From assembly GCA_946894095.1 (NCBI GenBank), contig OX335645.2, forward strand, positions 15,027,001-15,091,000: DNA of 64,000 nt, in the 5' to 3' direction. The position numbers and the translations under genes are program-made. A model generated the notes under the pieces. The model made no database searches, was not told the origin of the DNA, and saw only the letters and a program-made list of their open reading frames with translations. The DNA comes from Incurvaria masculella. Lineage: Eukaryota > Arthropoda > Insecta > Lepidoptera > Incurvariidae. Below are positions 27,478 through 64,000 of this stretch, in pieces; positions within the stretch are counted from its first letter, which is position 1, and every line of letters starts with the position of its first letter.

Positions 27478-30003
27478 ATGGTGCAGGTGAGGATGATCAG
27501 TTTATTTTTTAGGTCTAAGTATGAACCTGACAACCCTCTGAAAACGCAACATTAGGTAAGAAATAAAAAACAAGATTTGTTTTTTATTGTTACTAGCTAT
27601 TATACCTATACCTGAATTATTCTTTATTCAAGCTTAGCTCGTAGCCTATTGGCACGGTCTACCATACCAGAGGTCTGGTTCATGCACCACTTTCTTTCTC
27701 TTTACGAGTTGCATAAATGCATTTTGTCACAAATACGAGCTGCTCCATGGTTCGGAATCCATGTAAAACTACTATAATGTATATAGACTATCTTGTATGT
27801 GGGTACAGTATTATATCACTGGCCTAATCTGTCATTTGTAAAGAAATAGTTATGCAGGTAAACAAAACTTGCAACGGTATAAGATCCCCAGTTTCTGGAA
27901 TGCAATTTTGGCCTTGGATCCAATAAAACATACTATCCAGGCCGGTCCAGGTGCTCCGAGACAGGTATGACGTTGCCTTGGAAACTTGCTAGGATTGGAA
28001 ACGGATTTACCTTGGCAGAGAAAACACAGCATTGCATCTTGCGAACATTGAAGGCGACAATGTTCTACTGACCCCAGTTGGCTACTTTCTCGAGAACATT
28101 TTCCACCTAACCAATTTACCACAGAACCCCTCGCTAGGCTGTGCATCTCTGCCGATATCTTTATACTGACCCCACATAAATTATATTTTATTGTTATTAT
28201 TTTTACTTGTACAACTTTAAAGGCTTTTATTTTTTATTTTATTGCATGGCTTTAATGAATTGATATGTATTCAAAACTGTGTGCTCAGTGTACTGAAAAA
28301 AATAGGATGTATTCTACAGCATTAAGTGCTTACAATTGCTTATTGCATACTTGAAAAAAAAAGCTGTACTGAATATAGAATTTGAAATATGAAAATTATT
28401 CTTTGCTTTATGATAACTGGGGTTCTGTACCTAGTTAATTTCATTTCATTTATTTAAACTTTTGGCAGTCAAATTTAAATTATCTCAGTAAAGAAGAACT
28501 CCCAAATAAACTCCACTATTTACATCTTTTTTCCGTCTACAATAATAAAATACACACTTGGACCTAAATGCTACTACTACTACTAAATAAGCATTGTGTT
28601 AAATTGTAGTGATATTTGCAACAATTTCGGCTTGTTTTTGTTGCATGCCGCTCTTCTCTTTTCATCATTTGACACCACTCATTTCGCACATTCTTGTCAT
28701 TTGGAAAATGGAAGAAATACTTGTTTGGTGTTATTTTGGTTGTATTAGTACACGAGGGCACTTTACATTACTTACAAGGTTTTACAAAATACGCATGCAG
28801 CATGCCACATACAGCACGAATGCGAAATTTGATAAAAAGACCGAACACATAAGAAAGAAGAACCACTAACAAATATACACATTATACGTTAAATAGACTG
28901 TACATAGTCGACAAAACAATGATTAATTGTGTTCCACCATTTTGCGGCCGCTGGTTAGATTGAGGAACATCAGCTGGTTAACATCTACTCTTTGAATAAA
29001 TTTGCTAAAGAGTCATCTCACTGCTGCTGTAGGGTGTAACGTGTAGTGCTTAAGGTGTGGTCTGAAGACCTATGTGATTGTTTAAAGATGGAAATGATTG
29101 TTGCAGGCGATGGAAGAAACTGAACAACAAGACCTGGGGCAAGCCCTGCGGCTGCTTGGGGAGATGAATAACAATGTACAACAAGTGGGCGATCTCGTGG
29201 ACCACATGCTTCTCCGCGTGCGTACCGGTCAACTCTCCACTGACAAAGGTTTGAGCTTCTTAGAGATGAAATACCAAATGCTCTTAAGTTACCTCATTAA
29301 TCTGACGCATATAGTCTTGCGAAAGTGCTCCGGCGAAAAGATTGAATCGGACCCGTCAATCGACAGGCTGATAGAGATACGAACAGTTCTGGAGAAGATT
29401 CGTCCCATCGATTCCAAGCTGAAGTACCAAATCGACAAGCTCGTCAAAACTGCAGCAGTGGGTGCATCCACTGATGACGACCCGCAGACTTTCCGTGCCA
29501 ACCCTGATAACCTCTTGAGCAAAGTGGGCGATGATAGCGAGGACGGCAGTGAAGGCTCCGACGACCAAGATGTGCCCAAGGATAAAAATACCAAATCCAA
29601 CGTGTACGTTCCGCCCAAACTCGCCGCCGTGCACTTTGACGATTTTACTAAATCTGATGCAGACAAAAAAGTTAAGGAGCGTAAGAAGAAACAAATGCTG
29701 AATTCGAGTGTCATGCGAGAGCTGCGCGAGGAGTATTCTGATGCCCCGATGGAAGTCAGCAGCGGCACCCATGTCAAGCATTCAATATCAAAGTATGAAC
29801 AAGAGAAGACTGAATACGAGGAAAGCTATTTGACTCGTTTGCCTGTCACGAAGGCAGAAAAAAATAGACGTAAAAAATTAACCACGGTGGGCATGCTAGC
29901 AGACGAAATCACAGGTGCAGGGAGCAGTCACGGGGGAGCTAACAAAAAGCGAAAATTGAAGACAAAGAAGGGGAAAGGATTCAAGAAACGTCGCATACAC
30001 TAA
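27478..30003 (+). CDS. NGDN: Neuroguidin (Sas10/Utp3/C1D family)
   Basis: This nucleolar protein of the Sas10/Utp3/C1D family acts in small-subunit ribosome biogenesis; the vertebrate protein was also described as an eIF4E-binding partner in neurons. Two coding exons are called: 27478-27486 (ATG GTG CAG, donor GTGAGG) and 29107-30003 (acceptor TTGTTGCAG). They are in phase and give 301 residues, against 315 in human. The Sas10/C1D domain covers residues about 10-110 with GLSFLEMKYQMLLSYL and EIRTVLEKIRPIDSKLKYQI. An acidic stretch rich in D/E and S follows, then YVPPKL, SSVMRELREEYSDAP, and a Lys/Arg-rich nucleolar-type tail ending KGFKKRRIH. The start codon is set by the 9-bp first coding exon: exon 2 opens in frame and its first internal ATG would lose only four residues. 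A poly(A) signal candidate lies near 30563-30570. Confidence 0.95.
27631..27775 (+). repeat. SINE head copy in the NGDN intron
   Basis: The sequence carries 'agctcgtagcctattggcacgg', 'ataccagaggtctggttcatgc' and 'gttcggaatccatgtaaaact', the same order as the tRNA-headed SINE at 43974. It lies 145 bp beyond the first splice donor of NGDN. Confidence 0.6.
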
Positions 30004-37954: not shown

Positions 37955-39510
37955 ATGACCTCGAAAGAGCCTCCTGACTTGGACGACCCCGGAGGCCATC
38001 ATTTGCCTCTGGGGTTTGTTCTTGCCAAATCAAAACTCCACTCTCGGAGCAGTAATTCATTAAGCGATGAATTTAACACGCCTCCTGATCCGTCATGTTT
38101 CATAGAAGTCAGCAACAAATTTCAACTGTTGTCTGAAAATGATGAACCTCATTGTTCTGGGAAAAGAAAAAGAAAATCGAGACGCTTACAACCGAAAACA
38201 AAACACAATCCTATTGACTTGCATTCATCCAAATCCTCGATAGTTTCTTCCGAGATTGATAACCTGATAACCCTCCATCCAAGATTCCAACTCCTGGTCC
38301 TCCTCCACATCCTGCGACTGAAAATAAAGATAATAATGACTTGACAAGACTATACAATATATATGATAAGGGTCCCTTTATTGTTCATGCACAAAAAATT
38401 GAGTCAAATCCAACGTCTGGCACTACTCTAAATCCAATCACTTTTGGATTACTATTGCGTCAGAATAATATTACTCATATAAAACGAGATGGAATAAAAA
38501 ATATCGGTCGTAATAGAGTATCCATTGAGTTTGACACTTATGACGGGGCAAATCATTTCCTAGCTGAAAAATGTTTGTCAGAGAAAATGTTCAAAGCATT
38601 TATACCTACCTTTAATATTACTAAACTCGGCCTTGTAAAAGGTATCCCTCGTGATTGGTCAGTCGAAGAAATTTTGAAAGAAGTTCGCGTGCCTGATGGC
38701 TGTGGACCTGCCATTAAAGCCAGGCGCTTAAATTATAAAGTAAAACAAGAAGGCCCTCCGACTTGGAGGCCATCCGAGTCCGTCGTTTTAACTTTTGATG
38801 GTCAAAAACTTCCCAAGAGAGTATATGTTGTGAATACAAGCCTACCAGTTGATGTTTACGTCTATCCAACCATCCAATGTTTTAAATGTTGTCGTTTTGG
38901 GCACACCCGAACTCAATGTCGCTCCAAACCGAGGTGCTTCAAATGTGGTCAAGAACACCTTGGATCTACTTGCAATGTCGAAGATTCGTCAATTTCCTGC
39001 ATATCTTGTCATGGCAATCACTCTGCCATCAACAAAAATTGTCCAGAGTTTATGAGACAAACATTAATAAAAAGCAACATGGCTGAAAAATCTATATCGT
39101 ACGTTGAGGCTGCACGAGAAGTACCGACAGCTCGACGGTCGTATGCTAATGCGGTCTCAGCTCCATTGTCAAATATTCAACCTATAACTAAATCGTTTAA
39201 AAAAACTATTTTTTTGAAACCTAAACCGAGACCCTCACTTTCACCGGGATATAATGTTTCGGCCCACAATGCAATCATCAACGAATATACCCCCCCCTCT
39301 TCTAATGGTTGTGCCTTCCTCGATGAAGTCAATAGTCCTGCGACTGTTGACCAGATCAGCCAGTTGATTTCAATATTCATTAATTTGTTTCCTCCTAAAT
39401 CTTCTGTACCGTCCAACGTTGCCAAAAAAATTTCAGACATTTCACATATAATTCAAAATATGCTTAGTAATGAAGACTCTGTAGGTGAACTTCAGAGTAT
39501 TCAAAAGTAG
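37955..39510 (+). pseudogene. LINE ORF1 (gag-like), one frameshift
   Basis: ORF1 proteins of this class bind the element's RNA and form the particle with ORF2. The N-terminal part is open from the ATG at 37955 and leaves frame near 38262-38277, where GATAACCT is directly followed by GATAACCC. An 8-bp tandem duplication explains the shift, because the second frame is open from just beyond it to the stop at 39508-39510. Without those 8 bp the length is exactly 516 codons. The C-terminal half has three CCHC-type zinc knuckles: CFKCCRFGHTRTQC, CFKCGQEHLGSTC and CISCHGNHSAINKNC. Confidence 0.85.
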
Positions 39511-39625
39511 CCAATTCTAATTTGTGGTTTATTATTATTATTATTTATTTTTATATTTATATATATACATATATTTTATTATTATTATTTTTTTACTTTA
39601 AAATTTTTCATTTCTGAATATAAAA

Positions 39626-42600
39626 ATGGATTCCAAAATTTTACAATGGAATAGTAGAAGCATGTATCGTAAAAAATCTGAAATTTCTTATTTACTTAAT
39701 AAATACAATCCAATAGTGTTTGCTATTTCTGAAACATGGTTAAAAGCAGATCAAAGATTTAGAGTATCTAAATATATTACTCTCAGACATGACAGACCTG
39801 ACGGATGGGGTGGTGTCGCCCTACTTATAAATAATTCATACCCTTTCTCCTCCATTACCTTGCCCCCTTTTGGTGATAGTATGAATGCTGTTGCTGCCTG
39901 GGTGCAGGGTATAACTTTTCTATCCTTATACATTCCTAAACCATCTCCATCCATAGTTCATGAACTTAAAGCTCTCATATCGTCTCTTTCCAAGCCATTC
40001 ATTATATTAGGTGACTTTAACTGCAAACATGTAGTATGGGGATCTTCAATCAATGATAGCTTTGGCAATAAACTTATAGATATCATGGATGATCTTAATG
40101 TATGCCTATTGAATGATGGATCACCTACTCGTCGAGTCTCGCCTTATCAAAATGTTAGTGCCATAGACCTTACATTATGCTCCCCTGACATTGCTCAAAT
40201 ATCTTCATGGACGCCGTTATCCTCCACTCATGGTAGTGATCATTTTCCATTGCTTATTACCATTTTTGCCCATCATCAAGTACCACCTAAACGACAACCT
40301 TTACAAAAATATAAAGTTTGCAATGCCGATTGGTATACTTTCAAATCAATAGTAGACAAAAATGTCATGAACCTTGCTAAACCCTCCATAGAAAATCTCC
40401 AAATAACATATGCTAAATTTGTCGAGTCATTAATGGATGCAGCTGATAAATGCATCCCCTTAAAGAATTCTGCTTTAAACAAAAGGCCGTCTCCTCCTTG
40501 GTGGAATTCCGAATGCACAGGAGCTATAAAAAATAGGAAAAATGCGGAAAAAATATATACTGAAAATATGTCTGAAAAAATTTTTCTAGATCTTCGTAAG
40601 ATTCAAGCTCAAACATCTCGAACATTGAATGAAAAAAAAAAAGAAGGATGGCTCAATTTTTGCTCTTCTATTTCTCCCCAAACACCTCCCTCGATTGTAT
40701 GGAAAAATATTAAACGTTTTCGATCCGTTTTCAAAGACGTTCCTCCCTCAAAACCTATGTCTGATGTTTGGATTGAGGAATTTCTTAATAAATTGGCTCC
40801 ACCTACAATTCCCATGTTAACAGAAACTCCATTTCGATATGATTCATCATCATTTAATGATCATATGGATACTCCATATACTATACAGGAATTAAAACTC
40901 GTTCTAAGTCATGTTTCTGATTCCACTCCTGGAGTTGATGGTGTACCATATTCTTTCCTAAAATATTTAAATAATTATTCTTTGGAATATTTTCTAGAAC
41001 TGGTTAATCTCGCCATAGACTCTGGGGAAATTCCAAAATCCTGGAAAATTCAAATTATTGTTCCCATTTTAAAACCAAATAAAGACCCTAATTCTGGAAC
41101 TTCATACCGTCCCATAGCCTTATCGTCAGTTTTATCCAAAATAACTGAACATCTAATAAAGAATAGACTAGAGTGGTTTGTAGAAAATAAAGAATTATTG
41201 TCTAACACTCAGTTTGGATTCAGAAAAGGAAAAAGTACAATAGACAACCTTAGTATTTTCACAACAGATATTCGCCTCGCATTCAGCCGTGACGAGTCTG
41301 TCGTAGCAGCATTTTTAGACATTTCTGCTGCCTATGACAATGTTCAGCTACCAACTCTTAGACAAAAATTACATAATCTAAATATCCCTGAAAAAATTGT
41401 GCTTTTTATAAACAATTTACTTGTCCAAAGAACTATTGAGCTAAGAACTGACTATGGTCAATCATTGACACGGACTGTCTGGAAAGGTCTTCCGCAGGGC
41501 TCTGTTCTTAGTCCAATCCTATACAATCTTTATACTCATGACATTGATCGAAGTGTTAACCCTTTTTGTAGAGTTTTGCAATATGCTGACGACCTTCTTA
41601 TTTACATTGCCAGTAAGTCTTTCACTAATGCAGCCCAATCAATAAACACTTCAATAGAATCACTAAATAATTGGCTTTCAGTCCATGGATTAGAATTATC
41701 TGCAGCAAAAAGTAAAATTGTCACTTTCACCAGGAGACGGGCAATTCCAAACTTCATCATCAATAGTCATGGTTCCCAAATTCCACATGAAAATAAGATA
41801 AAATTTTTAGGTGTAATATTAGATGCAAAAATGACAGGTGTACCCCACATGAAGTTAATTTCTGAAAAATGTGAAAAAAATATTAATATAATCAGATCCC
41901 TCGCTGGCGCATGGTGGGGAGCTCACCCATATTCCCTGAAACTCATTTACAATGCTCTTATTCGAAGCCATCTTGATTATGGTACTTTTCTGTTTGAACC
42001 TGCTAATTGCAAAGCCTTGAATAACCTTAACTTGATTCAGTCTAAATGTCTCAGAATCATTACAGGTGCGATGAAGTCGTCCCCAATTAATACTTTGCAA
42101 GTTGAGTGTGTAGATCCCCCTTTACATCTACGAAGACAATATCTCTCTGACAGATATCTATGCAGAGCAATTCAGTTTTCTAAACATCCCATAATTCCCA
42201 AGTTACAACTACTATCGACATACACGCTGAACAAAAAATTCTGGGAGAACAAAGTCTCTCCCAGATTAGTTAAAAGTTACCGCAAATTTCGTAACTTAAA
42301 AGCTCCTACATATAGATCTGAAACTCTTCCCTTATTTGAAACACCATATGAAGCTTTGGTTCATTCTCCTACAGTTCTTACTCACATCGGTATTGACAAA
42401 GAAACTCCTGCTGCTAATGCAAAATTTAACGCTTGGATTCAAGAAAAATACCCAAATTGGCATATTATATACACCGATGCTTCAAAACTATCCTTGGATG
42501 GTAGTGTAGGCTCAGCTTTCTTTTATCAAAATCTCAATTTGGTTTGTAAGATGAAAAGTCCAACAGAAGCTTCAGTTTACACAGGGGAGGTGTTTGCAAT

Positions 42601-43336
42601 TCTTGTAGCATTACAATTCATTGAACGCAATACATTCTTGAAAAATATCCTTATACTGTCTGACTCGAAGAGCACTCTGCAATCAATTCTTCAAAACCCT
42701 TTCAAAAGTCGAATTCATAATCCTTTAATTATGCAAATTAGACATTTATTATATGATTTTTTTATAAATCATATTGACATAGTAATAGCTTGGATACCAG
42801 GACACCATGATATAGCTGGAAATGTCATTGCGGATGAATGTGCAAAAGACGCTGTAATAAGAGGAGATAAAACTGTTTATAAAAACTATTGTTATGACCT
42901 TGCATGCCTACCTAAAGTACAGCTTACTCACACATGGCAAAGATCATGAAAAAGATCTAGCGAACACAAAGGCAGGTATTACTCAAAAATTCAACCAGAT
43001 ATTCCAGCCAAACCATGGTTCTTCAAAGTAAAATTAAATAAAGTAGAGACATCAATCATATGTAGATTAAGAATTGGCCACATATGCTCTCCAGTTCATC
43101 TTACTAAACTTCGAATAAAAGATTCATCATTATGTGAATGTGGTCTAGATGAGGGCACTGCTGATCATATACTTCTTGCATGTCCTCTACATGACAAATC
43201 CACTCCGATTTATAGTAATTTATCAAAACTAAAAATACCTTTGCCCACTAATGTTCAAACTCTCCTTGCTACCTTTAACATCTCTCTGTTAAGAATAATA
43301 GCTTCATTTATTAAAGCGAATAAAATTAAACTATGA
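39626..43336 (+). pseudogene. LINE ORF2 (APE, reverse transcriptase, RNase H), one internal stop
   Basis: ORF2 cuts the target and copies the element RNA into DNA. The frame is open for 1,107 residues, meets a single TGA at 42947-42949, and then continues in the same frame to the TGA at 43334-43336. The N-terminal AP endonuclease shows QWNSRSM, SETWL, GDFNCKHVVWGS and GSDHFPL. The reverse transcriptase has SYRPIALSS (about residue 493), QFGFRKGKST, FLDISAAYDNV, GLPQGSVLSPILYN and the active site YADD at about 653-656. The RNase H has YTDAS, TGEVFAIL, LSDSKST and WIPGHHDIAGN. The C-terminal zinc-finger-like CECGLDEGTADHILLAC lies after the internal stop, so it would be lost. Confidence 0.92.
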
Positions 43337-43604: not shown

Positions 43605-46600
43605 ATGTATTATCTAGATTCTCGATTAAACGTAAAGAGGAGGGACAGCTCCTTCTTACGCAGTCCCGAACCCTTGTGGGAGGAGAATGACTCCCCATCT
43701 TTAGCAGTCATAAAGCTCGGTTCGGCGACCACTCACTTGACCAGCATATCTGAGCATTCCGTGCCGGAGAAGCATAAGAACAAAATATCAGTTGAACAGC
43801 AGCTAATTACTTCGCTTTTTGAATCAATGCTGGGCGCAATAGTGAAGTCTTGGACTGTTGTGGACAACCAAATAGATGCCAAAGAAACAGCTCCCATCAT
43901 CAGTGAAATGGGTCTCGTGCCACGAAAAGGGAAAAAAACAAGTAGGTCGAAATGTTTTAAATGTTTAAACTATGGAGCGGCTCGTAGCACGGAGGCGCGG
44001 AGACTGGCTTTCCATTCCAGAGGTCATAAGATCGATCCCCTGTCCTGCCTTCTCTTTCTGGGTTGGATAGTGCATTTCGTCACGAATGGTTCGGAATCCA
44101 TGTGAAACTGTAGTCCCTTACTAGGTGGTAGGGTTAATCCCGCCCACCGGATACCATTGCATTGGATTAAAAGATGGACTAATCCGGACAATTTCCAGTT
44201 CAATGTAGCCGTGCTTTTAAAATAAAGGCAGAAACCTAATTCCAGACCTCATGTGTTGGTTTAAAATCATGACGGTGGTGGGTGGATATTAGCCATCAAA
44301 TCACCTCTGTCGTGGTAGGACATACAAAAATTGTGCGTTAAAAATATAATAAAATTTTCAGCACCGAAAAGTGGCAAGGCCCGCAGCCGGACAAAGCTAC
44401 AATCAGGCATGTCCTCCTCGCAGGCAGTACTGAGTGTCAAGCCGCTGCCAAGCGTGTGGTGGAACGGACAAGATGAGAAAGCTAGAATTCAGTTCCACAA
44501 CGGGAACACATACGAGGGAAACATTTCAATGAAATGCATGCACGGAGAAGGGAAGTTTGAATGGGCATCCGGTGCTAGATACATGGTGATCTTCCTTGTG
44601 TATAAGTAGGAAGCAAATATTGCAACACGGTCTGACGTTTGCATCGTGCATCGCGAGCATGGAGAGACGGGAGAATCGATCGAAACTCATTCGTATGGCG
44701 CATGGCGGCAGCGTTGCCACGAGTTAACCAAAACGTCTAAGGGTATTTTTCGCCTACTGCTGATTAGCTTACATACAAGCAAATTTCGGTTCTTCCATGC
44801 TCGCTGATTCAGTCATTGCGGTTAGAGGGCGATGTTATCACCGTCTGCGCCGCCGCCGTGTGTATTTTGCGCTTGCACGCGGACTGTACTGCATCCATCA
44901 AGACACAAACATCCCGCAAACATAGTATTCCGGGAGGTCACGACATGTTTGGTCACGATAAGGTAAATGGCTGAATCTGGGTTCACATGTTAGAAACCAA
45001 CCCGCTGATGCTAGTTATGTCTGTCTGCGCCATAGACCTAGCATGCGCGCGCAATCCTATTTCTATGGTCTGCGCCAAGTGGTTGCGTTATCTAGATTGG
45101 CTATATAAAATAGATACTGGTATGTACCTGCTGATGAATATACTGATTGTCTAGAAATATTGATACCTTCTAATTATACAACAATAACCAGTCGGTTTTT
45201 TAATTAAATACTTAAATATATCTAAAGTTATATCTTTAACCTTAATCGCCTATAACTACGAAATGCAACCGAACATTTCTTCAGTTTTGGTATTGCTAAG
45301 CAAGTATGTACTAATACTTTCATGCTTCTTTATTTGCAGCCATTTACCTTATCATTTATATTTGTTCTCACCATAACTACTTTTTCAGGCACCTTTTCTA
45401 CGTAAGGCTACCACTTGGCGCAGGCAGACTGACACATTTACCTTCGGAGGGTTGGTCTCTATCCGTTGAAACCAGTTTCAGCCATTAACATTATGGTTAC
45501 CATTTTTGTCGCGACCTCCTTGTCTATAGACCATGTCAGGATAAAGTGTTTTCCTCACAACTTATTTGCAGGGCAGTTTCTTTTCCAATGAACTACGAGG
45601 CCGAGGCGTCCTCGAATGGCGTAATCAGACGTGGTACGAAGGAAGTTTCGTAGGCAACGTGCGTCACGGATACGGGATGTTCGTCAACTCTCGAGAACGG
45701 TTGTCCTATATTGGTAATTGGCACTGTGGGACCAAAGATGGACAAGGAATTATTTGTTATTCAAGCAACGACTTGTACGACGGCACCTGGGAACAGGTTT
45801 GCAACTCCAACTGGTTCGTTACGTGTATCGCGTGTTGTCGGACTGATGAGCACTATTTATTGTTTTTTTTCTTTCAATAACTTCAGCAATGACTGGTGGT
45901 CGAACGTTTTTTATTTACTATTTCTTGTAAAACAAAAGTGATGAAGACGTTTATGCCCATCTATTTAGATAGTCACATTTGATGCATTTTCGTGTCTACA
46001 TGTGATGCAGGGAAAAATGACTATGATGTAACGTTAATTACTCCCATGGTTATTTTTATATTGTAAATGGTTTTCATGACTCACCGTGTTTGCGATTTAT
46101 CACACAGCTCACGGATAGACTGACGCGAAACGTAGGGAGAAAATCGCCAACATGGTGAGTCCCGAAAACCATTTACAATGTCTACGATATTGTGGTCTTT
46201 CATATGGATGGGTAAATACCACACAACTACCGTTATGATATTAGCCCAATACACCACATTCACACAGGTGCCATGCCAGGACCTTTCCGTTATGAGCACG
46301 GCTACATTGAACTGGATAGAAAACACGGACAATTTTTCATTGCCGCTTCGATCATCTTTTCATCCAATGCGATGTCGCGGGGAACGGGACCTACAGTTTC
46401 ACATGCGTTCCGAACCATAGAGCATGTCGCATTTGTGACGAAGTGCACTTATCCAACTCAGAAAGAGAAAGAAAGTGGTGCAAGGGGCGAGGATTTGAGC
46501 CCAGACCTCTGGTATGCTAGGCAAGTCCCCGCGCCACTACGCTAGAGCCGCTCACTGGTATCCGCTTCTTCCCTCGATGCCGATCTTAGCTATTCTAATA

Positions 46601-49600
46601 GAGCGGTACCGACATTTTTATCTAGCCAAAACATTTTCTAAAAATCGTGTTAGATATTGTTCTGTAATATGTGTATAAGAATACTTATTTGTAGATTGTA
46701 GTCCACCTCTGAATGACCTGCCTGAGCGTATAACACTTCGTTAGAAAACAGAAAATCTTGCCCATCACTCCCACCGTTATTGTGCCTACCTACCTTATTA
46801 TGATAGATACTCACATTGTTGCAGAACGTACGTCAGGGTTTCGGTAAAAGAGAATACAGTGCAACAAGTGGCTACCAAGGAATCTGGAATAATTATATCA
46901 GACAGGGGCAAGGTTTTATGATATGGCCAAATCAAGATGTGAGTAATGTAGTTTTAATTAAGAGGCCTACATTCGCGGTGACGGAAAAATTGCCCCTGCC
47001 TCGTTTTTATGTAATTTTTTAAATATAATATGCTCTACAAGAGTTTACTTTTCGAAGAAAATTCACAATCCACCCTGAGAATAAAACTGCACTGACCACA
47101 AAAGCGACATGGTTTAGGTTTTTTTTTAAAGGGCTTATTGGTGGCGCGGGTAGGTCGCTGGACACAGCCATAGATTAAGCGAAGACATTATGGCCTAACC
47201 ACTCATTTTAGCGAAAGTTCGCGACCTGCTATTTTATGCAGCCGTGCAATATAAGGAAGGTCATGGAATGATACAGATCCCATGTGGTAGATGCCACCAT
47301 AACATACCTTAACAATTCATAGTGAAATTGCAGTCTCAGAAACGAACTGGAAGGTTTTTAACCATGTAATTTATAGCTGGCCTTTTAGAGGTATGCGCTC
47401 ATGAGGTATAAGGCTCCCGAAGACGAGCGAAGAGATGGCTAAATAGGGCCTGGTCCACTGCTGCGTAGGGGTTCAGCGGCAACCTTTACTAGGGCTGCAG
47501 GCGATGGCCAATGTACGATTAAGGGTCACAAATGTAAACAGTAACTAATGTTATGGCAAGATGACGTTATTTTCTCTTCCATTATAACAAAATCTCAATA
47601 GTGTTGTTCGTTCCCATGCAATTAACATGTATCGTCACCATAATAGTTTTTTTGTTGAAGAATCACCTCCAGAAACAACTCTAGTCCACACATGCACATA
47701 ATTGTATTATATTTCCAACTTAAGCTTTTTGTACATTCAAACGTTACAGTATTACAATGGTGAATGGAAGGACGGTGTCATGTCGGGGCATGGGTTATAT
47801 GTGTGGAATATCTGTGCAAATAGAACCATGTCTATACCTTCGGAAAAAGGCGTACAATGGTTACTGGAAAAATGGCAAGCGGCACGGCCACGGCTATCTT
47901 CGGTTAGGTTTTTCAAATGGTTTACATTACAAGGGTAATTTCAATGAAAATATGAAACACGGCAAGGGCACACTAGTTACGGGCGAGGGGTTCATCATGC
48001 AAAGCGAACAATTGTTTCTCAATGATAACCTGGCCTCAGGAAGAAGTGAAAATGAAGGCAACTCTAGTACCGTGGATGTGACGAGTGTGCGGCAGGCACA
48101 ATTTCAAATGTTCAATGGAAGTGTTGATCTATGGTATCACATTGACCAAACTTTGAAAGGAATTGACGGACGTGATAAGATACAAGATCAAATTGTTGAC
48201 ACATATATCACCGCTTGCAAAAATCGTGGCAGGACCACCTACAACATCAGTCAGCAAAAAAAAATCAATGTATGCGATGTTGAGCCTTTTAATGTAAACT
48301 TTGAATATAAGGCATTGCAGAAAGCAATTAGATGTTATGAAACGGATTTAAAGAACATCTATTATAAGTATGCCACGGTGTGCAACACTACGGAAATACA
48401 AGTTACGCCTATACTTATACGTCTATTTTTGTGGCAAATGTATTATGATTGCAAAGTCCATGAAAAGGGTTTAACATTGGGAGAAATAGACAACATGCTT
48501 TATTCGAATCCAGCATGGCTCATACAAACGATTCACGATCCTTTTGAGAGAATATACTATTGGCAGTATGTGCATAGCATGATTGCAGTTTCGAGTAAGC
48601 TGTACTTTAAAAATCATCTACCCAGTGAAAAATGCGATGCTATGTTAGCATCTGGATTCAGAAAGTTTATGACTGACGATATTCTTCTTCACGTAGGCAT
48701 TACGAGAGGTAAATATTAGAAAGCCTTGTCATTACTTTACGTAAAACAATAAGGATCGGAGGAGCCTATGTCTCAAATGGTCTTTGATTGATATTTATAC
48801 CCTCGTTCCTCCTAATATGATTTCCTTTTTATTATTATTTGCTAAATTATAAGTACCTACCTTCATCAACCCCAGCAAGCAACTCAATAGGATTATTATT
48901 TTTTTCCAACAATCTACACATATTGGACATACTTATCAGTATCAGTGTACAGAATACATATATGTTGTTCCCTACTTACAATAATCGACTAAAACTATGA
49001 TTACCTATATTCATAGTTGAGTAAGCTTTACTCGCGAAGAAGGCTTTACTCTATGAATTCAATAATTAAGTACACAAAATAGATTCAAATAACGAACGAA
49101 TTAAATGTTATTTAGAGGTGAGGGGGTGCTGCGAATAAGGCCTTTTACCGAATTTTACTCCTTTTCAATTCCCTTATTTATTTTGCCAGGTGTGTCCTTG
49201 GCAACATGCATGGCGTACATTCCTCTGAACTCTATGTACAAACTTTACAAGAGCATTGGGGAGCCGCACACTATCAGAGATTTCTTAATGGCCACTAGGT
49301 ATCCACCTCACTGGACGCATCTGCGCCAACCTGCACCCGAAGATACTCCAGACGAAGAGCTCGTCTTTGGAAGCAACGCTTTCCTCATTGGGGATCAAAT
49401 TGCTTTTGTTACTGGTGAGTAAAACCCTCGACGTGCACCAATCGTCTACTTTTTAGTTACTTATGCGCAGCAAATTATTTTTGAATACATTCAATATTAA
49501 CAGTTTTATCCGTGCCAAACAGTTTTTTATAAAACGCTCCGCCAATAGCACCGTGGTTATAATATTTTTAATCGGCAGTAATGACAGACTGCATAGCAGA

Positions 49601-50257
49601 ATGCAACGTTGCCAATAGGCTGCGTGATGGGCAACAAAAGTCATGCCGTTTTACCGGAAATATTGTCACTTCCAGACTTTAGCTGTACCTACATAAAATG
49701 AACAAGCAGTAGGCAGAGATGATAGACCTCCCACCATCATATGTATGATGTGATGCGAGATCACGAGCCTACTTTATTCGCTTCCTCTACAGGGAATCTA
49801 TCTTTTAAAATGAATAAACTACCTTTTTCGTTTCGAGCGAGCTAGGTAGATCGTAGCCTTCGTATGCTCGAATTGTCAGAAGGCGTACTTAAAAAATCGT
49901 CTTAAAAATGTTCGAATAAATTCTAAGTAATAACATTTCGTTTCAGAGAAAAGCCTATTCAAGAAAAAAGAGGCGAAAACTCCTACGAAACCGGCCTTAA
50001 AGCTATTCAACCTGGGAATGTTGTCTAGCAAGGATATCTTAAGAAACTTCGCTAAAATATTCCCAAGTGTTCGAGAGAGCGAGAAGATTATTGCTGTGGA
50101 CATTCGTCTAACTTTCTTGGAGTTCTATGAAGTGTTATTTGATTGCTTGAAAGATTGTATTGCTGCTAAAGAGCAGGTAGAAAAGCGAAATGCTTTGCTA
50201 GCGGAAATGCCACAAAATGTTAAAATTGATGGCAGTTTTAAAAAGCAGCGGCGTTGA
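43605..50257 (+). CDS. RSPH10B: Radial spoke head 10 homolog B (MORN-repeat protein), frameshifted
   Basis: RSPH10B is a head component of the radial spokes of motile cilia and sperm flagella. Seven exons are called: 43605-43941, 44362-44585, 45572-45796, 46825-46938, 47750-48708, 49190-49414 and 49947-50257. Residues about 140-430 hold roughly eight MORN repeats, such as NGNTYEGNISMKCMHGEGKF, WYEGSFVGNVRHGYGMF and YYNGEWKDGVMSGHGLYVW. The later part has the family's alpha-helical region (LFLWQMYYDCKVHEKGLTLG, MLYSNPAWL, FRKFMTDDILLHVG). The length is about 797 residues, against 870 in human. In exon 5 the frame shifts by one base between about 47806 and 47838: MORN units are clear before it in one frame and after it in the next, and the exon is one base too long for its flanking phases. 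Donors after exons 2 (GTGATC), 3 (GTTTGC) and 5 (GTAAAT) are weak. A TAG at 43584 makes ATG 43605 the first possible start. The poly(A) signal is at 50387. Confidence 0.88.
43974..44306 (+). repeat. Nearly full-length tRNA-derived SINE in RSPH10B intron 1
   Basis: The head 'gagcggctcgtagcacgg' (A-box-like) and 'ggtcataagatcgatcccc' (B-box-like) are followed by the body ('ttcggaatccatgtgaaact', 'ctaggtggtagggttaatcc', 'tgtagccgtgcttttaaa'). It begins 32 bp after the exon 1 donor and makes up most of the 420-bp intron. Confidence 0.7.
44930..45525. repeat. Long foldback element in RSPH10B intron 2
   Basis: The left arm (about 44933-45060) and right arm (about 45410-45520) are inverted copies. 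Shared blocks include GGAGGTC(A/G)CGACA, 'taatggctga' or 'aaatggctga', 'agaaaccaacc' or 'agagaccaacc', and 'tgtctgcgcc' or 'tctgcctgcgcc'. The middle is AT-rich. It ends about 50 bp before exon 3 and holds no coding sequence. Confidence 0.7.
46060..46180. mobile_element. 121-bp palindromic MITE in RSPH10B intron 3
   Basis: Ends of about 30 bp are inverted: ATTGTAAATGGTTTTC...ACTCACC on the left and GGTGAGT...GAAAACCATTTACAAT on the right, around a core of about 60 bp. The SINE at 46194 follows directly. Confidence 0.75.
46194..46553 (-). repeat. Full-length SINE in RSPH10B intron 3, inverted
   Basis: On the minus strand the head 'agcggctctagcgtagtggc' (A box) and 'aggtctgggctcaaatcctc' (B box, GGCTCAAATCC) are followed by the full body, ending in 'acccatccat'. 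This is the clearest evidence that the family is tRNA-derived. Confidence 0.75.
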
Positions 50258-51405: not shown

Positions 51406-51780
51406 AGTTGCTTGACTTTTTACTCAAGTTGTTTTTTTTAGACTTCTGGTTTTCAAATTATTTTTTATGCTCCGTTAAAAAAAACTCCTACTTAGTCACG
51501 TTTCGGTCAAACGCGTTATGGTATTAAGTGGGAAGTACGTGAAAAAAAAAGAAAATAAAAAAGACGAATCATAGGCTGTCAATAATATTGTTTAATTTTA
51601 ACAGTAATTTTAACTTCATTCATAAGCCGTCTTCTGGGCGCTAGCAGTTTCCATGCATTTCGGTTTGCGCCGTAAGCGGTCGCTAGTCCGTCCCTTAATT
51701 TACCTACAGAAACAAGAGTGCGTGAGTCAACATAGGACGAAGTGTGCACCATATCCTATTCAAAGACTTCAATAATGGAT

Positions 51781-53063
51781 TTAACCCCATCTCCAAATCT
51801 TCCAAGGTCTGAAGAGCCACATGGTGTCGTCCCGGCTGAGGTCTTCGGACGGCGCGTCCAGCGGGTCGCGGATCTCTATCGGCTCCTGGGAGCCGGGGTT
51901 GTCCGTCTTGGTGGACTCCTGGCCTGACGTCTGCCCCAGCAGACAGAGTGCGCAGAACAGGAGTACCACAATCTGAAATCACAATTTGGAAAATTTAAAT
52001 AGTTGTTTGTGCAAAAAACGCCACTGCTCACACCTTGGGTGATTTAGCGTGATGCTAGGTAGCTTTAACATTGTGGGAACAATGAAATACGTACATTAAA
52101 AACTGCACCGAAATCGGGTTAGCGGTTCCATGCCAGAACCTTCCTTATATTGATCTGCTACTTTGAAATGGAAGGAAAGAAGAGATATTTTATTCCTGAT
52201 TTGACCGTTCAATGTGATGGTCAAACCTGGGTGGGATTAACCTTATCACATAGTAAGTAAGGAACTACAGTATTACGTGGAATCCGAGACGCGGCCAGAT
52301 TCCACGGTCACCCATCCACTAGCGCTACTAGGCTGCCGGGGCTGACAAATCAAAGTGCCCTATAAAATGAACCTAGCCAAAGACATAAAATATTACTGAA
52401 AGGTTTGTCTATATGAATTGAATAGAACAGATGTAATATTCTAGGTATTTGGTTACTCTTTGCATTTCGAACCCATTGAATTTCTCTAACATTTTTGGTG
52501 GGAAAGTTAAATACCCTTTTAGTTGGGAAATTTATTCAGTTCAGTTCTCCAAAGTGTGGTAATTCTGCAGAGGCATTGAATATCAATACCCACTCACAAC
52601 CAGGTTTATATAATAACTTTATTTGATCAGCCCCCATATGAATGGGATAGCAAATATTTTTGGAGACTTTTAAGTATACAATGTAGAGGAAAAAGGTACC
52701 CACAGAATCAATTAAATACAAAAAAATAACATTACAAATTCATTCATCATTAGAATAAAACGACCCAAGGTAGTCTGGACCCCTGCCATACTTCAATGCT
52801 AACAAGGCAAAGAATTCCATTTTACTCCTATGTCGAGGCCAACATAACAAAAAGGATCTTGAATTTGTCTCTATTTCCGGTAACACGACATGAAAATACG
52901 TAACTGTACCAAGTACAACCCCTCCGCCTACCCCTTTTCCCTAGTGCCTTCGTAAATTAAATTGACTATCCGATGACTTCACCCCACATAAATTACATGA
53001 AAAATTAAGAAATTAATAGTTATTAGGTATTATGCAATAAGTGCAGCTCACATGCAGCTTCAT
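51781..53063 (-). CDS. Small secreted precursor with a Trp-rich cationic C-terminus
   Basis: Two exons (53052-53063, then 51781-51972) join in phase 0 across a 1,079-bp intron with donor GTGAGC and acceptor TTTCAG. They encode 67 residues. Residues 1 to about 21 form a signal peptide (MKLHIVVLLFCALCLLGQTS). Residues 23-53 are strongly acidic (10 Asp/Glu against 3 Lys/Arg), and residues 54-67 are TMWLFRPWKIWRWG, with four Trp, three basic and no acidic residues. The mature part has no Cys. A signal peptide, acidic pro-region and cationic Trp-rich tail form the layout of many antimicrobial peptide precursors. The terminal Gly directly before the stop could serve for C-terminal amidation, as in neuropeptides. 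There is no dibasic site; Arg51 is the only basic residue close before the tail. I do not recognise the family. A TATA box and initiator support a real, regulated gene. Confidence 0.72.
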
Positions 53064-53117
53064 CGTCGGTTGGCGTCGGGTCGGTCGGTGAGGTTCACTG
53101 GCTGCTTGAATGTCGAG

Positions 53118-53150
53118 TGACGCCTTCGCCGCGACGGCACGCAATTTATA
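53118..53150 (-). promoter_or_regulatory. TATA box and initiator of the secreted peptide gene
   Basis: On the minus strand TATAAAT occupies 53150-53144. An initiator-like TCACT has its A at 53118, about 32 bases downstream, leaving a 54-base 5' UTR before the ATG. A weak NF-kappaB-like string (GGCAATTTTCC on the minus strand, one mismatch from a typical insect site) lies at about 53327-53337. Confidence 0.55.
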
Positions 53151-55721: not shown

Positions 55722-63373
<7,652 letters not shown>

Positions 63374-64000
63374 CTACAATTACATTTAGGACAGATAAAA
63401 TACATGCATACTTGGGAGCGAAGCACTTTAGTATATAAATTGCATTTTGTCAACCTGTTCATCCTATTTTAGGTGTTGCATTTCGGCGCAGCCATTATAA
63501 ATGATTGAGCTTAGTACAATAAGAACAAACAATTTCGGACGTAGTTATTGAACTTTATTCTAATTTATTTTTTTGAGTTTATGGATTGGAAAATAAAAAT
63601 AGTTTGGTCACATTATTTTAACTTAAAAGTGAATCTTTCAAGAATGATGCATCTAAATAAATTTAAAATTACATATTCATTTAATTTTCAACTATAATTT
63701 AATTTTCATCAGTTTAAAAATAGACTGGATAAACCATAGACCTAGCATAGCGCGCTGTGTTTACAAGACGTACATAGGATAACGCTCAGGCAATGTGATT
63801 TTTTTTGTGAAATCATTATGATTTCTCTAGTTTTTCTGACAGAAAGGATAGTGACCTGCGCATTTATAGATTGTTAAGTGAGCAGGCGTAAGAAACCCAG
63901 ACAAATAACATTTTATTCTGGTAAATGAGAGGTGACCCAAATATTCTTTGTTGATCATATTCCCTTACTTTTCCTCATTATTTCAAAGTAAAACTTTAAA
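63374..64000. other. Right edge: CABLES intron or upstream sequence
   Basis: The open frame extends upstream of 63373 to a possible ATG at 63462, but a TTGTAG acceptor at 63374 and the family's longer N-terminus favour intron here. No other gene is seen. A 'catagacctagca' string near 63737 also occurs near 45033, probably from a shared repeat. Confidence 0.4.

Follow-up and report, generated by a model that had tools for sequence, protein, structure and literature searches.

A probable two-exon secreted-peptide gene with a tryptophan-rich C-terminal tail in a moth genome

Our analysis of a 64-kb stretch of a moth genome (C5:15027001-15091000, hereafter the window; the assembly comprises 552 Mb in 31 contigs) points to an unrecognized secreted-peptide gene that is very probably real. 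The gene lies on the minus strand and has two exons, with the ATG at 53063 and the stop at 51781. As a tentative and by no means secure reading, we propose that this single-copy gene gives rise to a 45-residue secreted peptide that is capped at both ends and membrane active.

RESULTS

Gene structure and transcription signals

Positions 53063-53052 and 51972-51781, once joined, form a continuous open frame of 67 codons plus a stop, MKLHIVVLLFCALCLLGQTSGQESTKTDNPGSQEPIEIRDPLDAPSEDLSRDDTMWLFRPWKIWRWG. An earlier note on this DNA, which left the strand unnamed, had described a TATA box, an initiator, consensus splice sites, a signal peptide, an acidic middle, and a tail; all of these are present, on the minus strand, as follows.

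53145..53150, minus strand: TATA box TATAAA, first base 53150, 87 bases ahead of the ATG
53116..53120, minus strand: initiator-like TCACT, A at 53118, 32 bases downstream of the first TATA base
53052..53063, minus strand: coding part of exon 1, MKLH, read from the sequence
51973..53051, minus strand: intron of 1079 bases, phase 0, GTGAGC...TTTCAG
51781..51972, minus strand: coding part of exon 2, 63 codons plus stop, codon usage best of six frames, one genome match
51922..51972, minus strand: rest of the signal peptide, residues 5-21, from hydropathy, with a predicted cut between TSG and Q
51784..51921, minus strand: predicted mature peptide (residues 22-67), running from Gln to Gly, with putative end caps
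51784..51825, minus strand: tail TMWLFRPWKIWRWG, four Trp, charge +3
51591..51596, minus strand: poly(A) signal ATTAAA, 185 bases past the stop

The ATG has an A at -3, the interval from the initiator to the start holds no other ATG, and a T-rich run lies downstream of the ATTAAA.

Several other features share the window. A non-LTR retrotransposon occupies 38263-43336 on the plus strand; it consists of a 415-codon frame with a weak, subthreshold zinc-knuckle match, followed by one of 1115 codons carrying endonuclease, reverse transcriptase, and RNase H, and a further open frame extends past the stop at 42949. MORN-repeat frames at 45545-48719 (plus strand), which we take to encode a radial-spoke-type protein, lie on the opposite strand and downstream of the peptide gene, and the open frame 49934-50257, for which no Pfam family exceeded the cutoff, may belong to the same MORN-repeat gene. 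Open frames at 55722-55913 and 63100-63468 on the minus strand resemble parts of a CABLES-type protein, the former its end, and may belong to it; neither had a Pfam match, and 55722-55913 also had no PDB match. If this assignment is right, they would form a same-strand upstream neighbor that ends about 2.6 kb before the peptide gene.

Coding potential

We scanned both strands for models of two exons that combine a short first exon with a GTRAG donor, a pyrimidine-rich acceptor, a length of 55-120 residues, and a signal-peptide-like start, at two stringencies, and took 150 first-order Markov shuffles in 600-base blocks as the null. The real 64 kb contained a single such model, the peptide gene, at both stringencies, whereas the shuffles (n = 150) averaged 0.05 models at the strict and 0.20 at the relaxed setting over both strands of 64 kb, figures that flatter the gene because the scan criteria were post hoc, written after it had been seen. 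Shuffle models with a TATA box averaged 0 (strict) and 0.02 (relaxed) per shuffled 64 kb, and none had a four-Trp tail.

A codon usage table trained on seven coding pieces from other genes of the window ranked the peptide frame best of the six frames of exon 2, which rules out another frame as the coding one. The exon 2 score of -2.4, still slightly below that of a pure base-composition model, compares with a base-shuffled mean of -12.6 (standard deviation, 3.1; P = 0.001, 2000 shuffles). The GC3 of the gene is 0.79, and exon 2 has a G+C content of 61% versus 38% for the window.

Could the frame have arisen by chance, or belong to a noncoding RNA, so that no protein is made? The failure to find a homologue (see below), the post hoc criteria, and a codon score that is the best of six yet slightly negative in absolute terms would all suit such an origin. 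Against it stand the shuffle counts, the codon usage, a GC3 far from the G+C content of the window, and the presence of TATA, initiator, and poly(A) signals, and we consider it very improbable. Gene structure, shuffle scan, and codon usage together support the real two-exon secreted precursor that the earlier note had described.

The predicted precursor

The first residues are signal-peptide-like, with a mean hydropathy of 2.2 to 2.95 in windows of 11 residues that begin at residues 1, 4, and 7; we presume cleavage between TSG and Q on the basis of the -3,-1 rule. The predicted mature part begins with an acidic, Cys-free stretch of 32 residues (residues 22-53, charge -7) and ends with the 14-residue tail, whose four Trp and charge of +3 are as previously claimed; the whole predicted mature part has a charge of -4. 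Only 1 of 686 stop-to-stop open frames of at least 40 amino acids in the window, that of the peptide gene, carries four Trp among the final 14 residues, and one other carries three. Gly67, the last residue behind a signal-like stretch, fits a predicted C-terminal amidation.

The earlier note had read this layout as a pro-region plus a released tail, a division that is not written in the sequence: the border between acidic part and tail has neither a basic pair nor an RXXR site, and the single Arg51 is the only nearby basic residue. For this reason we favor an uncut 45-residue peptide over a freed tail. The note's full version, an acidic pro-region from which a cationic, amidated tail of 14 to 16 residues is freed to act as an inducible antimicrobial peptide, draws on the charge split of -7 and +3, on the Trp/Arg composition of the tail, and on a possible trypsin-like cut after Arg51, which would release DDTMWLFRPWKIWRWG; however, this product would retain two Asp and have a charge of only +1. 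Together with the promoter comparison given below, this makes release of the tail quite unlikely.

Search for relatives and copies

No relative of the 67-mer was found in a search of about 5.8 billion proteins, nor did an alignment widened by nine invented tail variants yield a candidate. Pfam returned no family at E-values up to 10, and the PDB gave two matches only, at chance level (E-values of 1.4 and 1.6). Among viral contigs, 17 stretches fitted the peptide pattern, as did 180 among prokaryote genome contigs, and none of either set was confirmed. The view that the peptide belongs to no known family thus agrees with the protein database, Pfam, and the PDB.

The reach of the protein search, which requires three shared 5-residue words, was estimated by simulation. 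Orthologs were recovered over the 67 residues in 31% of cases at 50% identity, 50% at 55%, 69% at 60%, and 96% at 70%, in a simple model with independent sites in which recovery is lower if only the 46 mature residues count. As a positive control we used a neuroguidin gene of the same window.

29110..30000, plus strand: neuroguidin, a single open frame

It retrieved 1077 proteins, many of the 120 listed being named Lepidoptera, which demonstrates that the database contains Lepidoptera but not that it contains their very short proteins; the best identity among the matches listed was 79%. A midpoint-rooted tree combined the window protein with the first 82 of the 1077 relatives. One of these was the caddisfly Arctopsyche; the window species fell outside the remaining 81 rows (support, 97/86), and the named rows among those 81 were all Lepidoptera. 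The best neuroguidin matches and the tree agree with the lepidopteran origin supposed earlier, and from this one gene the host looks like an early-branching moth with only distant relatives in the protein database.

Because of this distance, and because a word search misses about half of the orthologs at 55% identity, the null result for relatives is weak. Even neuroguidin reached no more than 79% identity, so a secreted peptide that evolves fast may well lie beyond the reach of the search. The peptide is perhaps restricted to its lineage, or an orphan.

Searches of the host genome gave, among the best candidates scored, one match each for the 67-residue protein, for exon 2, and for the promoter region, and tblastn against the window gave no convincing paralog (next best E-value, 0.36). 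These results rule out a repeat or a duplicated exon.

Cecropins of the same genome as a control

Eight cecropin loci (L004 to L011) exceeded the cutoff in a model search of the genome, six on C1 (24.41-24.61 Mb, five of them within about 17 kb), one on C7 (14.70 Mb), and one on C12 (12.76 Mb). Like the peptide gene, they have a TATA box and are split by an intron, with an upstream exon that encodes a signal-peptide-like start and with a Gly as the last residue. All eight cecropin open reading frames end in this Gly, so that the amide-donor argument made for the peptide is at home in this genome. The TATA box lies 89 to 116 bases before the putative ATG in all eight, versus 87 in the peptide gene. 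Cecropins are cationic helices. They differ from the peptide in that the latter has no Pfam match, and the two also differ in their upstream DNA.

We defined a kB core as an intact GGGR with at most one mismatch in YYYY, a criterion chosen after the cecropin sites had been seen. Between -200 and -81 of the ATG, such a core occurs in seven of the eight cecropins (L010 being the exception) versus 17% of random 120-base stretches of the window, and an exact GGGRNNYYYY occurs in four of the eight versus 3%. Within 350 bases, five of the eight cecropins have exact sites compared with 11% of random stretches, the upstream DNA being shorter than this for L008 (222 bases) and L010 (329 bases). The peptide gene has neither the core nor the exact site between -200 and -81 of its ATG, and no exact GGGRNNYYYY from -1000 to +200 of its start site. 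We set aside a comparison that allows one mismatch, since 52% of random 120-base stretches pass it; the peptide gene has one such site.

The missing kB core counts against induction by the kB route, and with it against an inducible antimicrobial tail, but not against constitutive defense. A promoter without an immune signature and the lack of any detected relative would also suit a secreted peptide of a gland or the reproductive system (seminal, salivary, silk, or cuticle) that is not antimicrobial, evolves fast, and is restricted to its lineage. Nothing in the data points positively to a tissue, however, and the null result for relatives carries little weight given the distance of the host; we regard such a role as rather unlikely, though still worth considering.

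Comparison with Trp-rich antimicrobial peptides

Mammalian Trp-rich peptides derive from cathelicidin precursors with a much larger pro-domain. In contrast, the 32 residues attached to the tail of the moth peptide are acidic, Cys-free, and without a clear cleavage site, and no cathelin-like pro-domain was found in the precursor with Pfam at E-values up to 10.

According to a review, Trp-rich antimicrobial peptides usually contain more than 25% Trp, together with Arg or Lys, and have Trp near the C terminus (PMC6017362). With 4 Trp (29%) and 3 Arg/Lys among its 14 residues, the tail falls within this composition, which applies to the tail only, as the whole mature peptide has 4 Trp in 46 residues. 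The same review includes the active hexapeptide KWRWIW-NH2 (KCM12), which has the same six residues as WKIWRW of the tail in a different order, and lists the following peptides of insect origin: cecropin, thanatin, defensin, drosomycin, drosocin, metchnikowin, apidaecin, abaecin, pyrrhocoricin, and melittin (PMC6017362). Indopt 5, a synthetic peptide derived from indolicidin, FIKWKFRPWKKRT-NH2, for which MICs are given (PMC6901909), has the word FRPWK in common with the tail. In a literature search on words of the tail, WKIWRW and RPWKI occurred in no paper, FRPWK occurred only in PMC6901909, and IWRWG occurred only in PMC6138672, where it is part of a human signal peptide; the related FRPWR appears within a heat shock protein peptide from Lonomia (PMC2806347). 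Such occurrences in a heat shock protein and a signal peptide mean that short tail words are not diagnostic.

Indolicidin, tritrpticin, puroindoline peptides, KCM12, and Indopt 5 share with the tail a short cationic stretch rich in Trp and Arg/Lys with Pro (PMC6017362, PMC6901909). They are amidated at the C terminus, whereas the amide of the moth peptide is only predicted, and they have no sequence homology to it. Judged from the sequences, the likeness is one of composition, not homology, and the earlier label "indolicidin-type" exceeds what the sequence allows. To our knowledge, none of the insect peptides that the review names, from cecropin to melittin, is Trp-rich.

Over the 13 residues before the Gly, the helical moment of the tail lies at the 52nd percentile of shuffles and the strand moment (160 degrees) at the 2nd percentile. 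Reading the tail as an amphipathic helix is unsupported, its helical moment being no better than that of shuffles. With one moment unremarkable and the other low, any membrane action would be that of an extended Trp-rich peptide. The antimicrobial interpretation offered earlier thus stands in part: the Trp/Arg composition and the C-terminal Gly agree with it, and the lack of a clear tail-freeing site, of helical amphipathicity, and of a kB core does not. An antimicrobial role is possible on this analysis.

DISCUSSION

Trp near an amidated C terminus also occurs in insect neuropeptides, among them the myoinhibitory peptides (allatostatin B), which have the form W(X6)W-amide and are encoded in several copies between basic pairs. 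Is the product then a peptide hormone or another signaling peptide, 45 residues long, capped by pyroglutamate and an amide, whose aromatic C-terminal message binds a receptor? The ends of the peptide suit both caps, the gene is single copy and TATA driven, and the peptide follows directly behind the signal peptide. The moth peptide, whose amide is a prediction, is however present in one copy without a basic pair; its Trp residues at 56, 61, 64, and 66 do not fit W(X6)W-amide; and no known family was matched. Among the matches listed in a literature search for RW-amides, the word RWamide appeared only in a placozoan paper. We judge a signaling role to be unlikely.

The reading that we tentatively favor, a doubly capped, membrane-active secreted peptide, starts from the gene structure, the coding frame, the composition, the single genome match, and the missing kB core, all of which are observed; from these we infer secretion, both end caps, membrane action, a role in defense, and the tissue. 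Signal peptidase would cut after Gly21, Gln22 would cyclize to pyroglutamate, and Gly67 would donate the amide, leaving 45 residues with both ends blocked. The first part of this product would be acidic and flexible, and its Trp/Arg tail would end in WKIWRW-amide. We hypothesize that the tail is the working part and settles into membrane interfaces in the way of extended Trp-rich peptides such as indolicidin, and that, before an anionic surface is met, the acidic part masks it and maintains its solubility. The anionic charge of the whole mature peptide (-4) is a point against this proposal. Constitutive defense at a secreting surface (gut, gland, or cuticle) would fit better than kB-driven induction in the fat body.

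A bolder possibility is that the gene represents a new family of Trp/Arg peptides encoded by insect genes, in which an acidic part masks an extended, amidated, Trp-rich, membrane-active tail. Such a family would have arisen in an early-branching moth lineage independently of the cathelicidins, with a precursor that is free of Cys after the signal peptide. We think that this goes beyond what is likely.

If the tail is active, the gene would provide a Trp-rich peptide encoded by an insect, a secreted effector of a moth lineage that has been little studied. Otherwise, it would illustrate a kind of gene that annotation easily misses: short, secreted, and perhaps restricted to one lineage.
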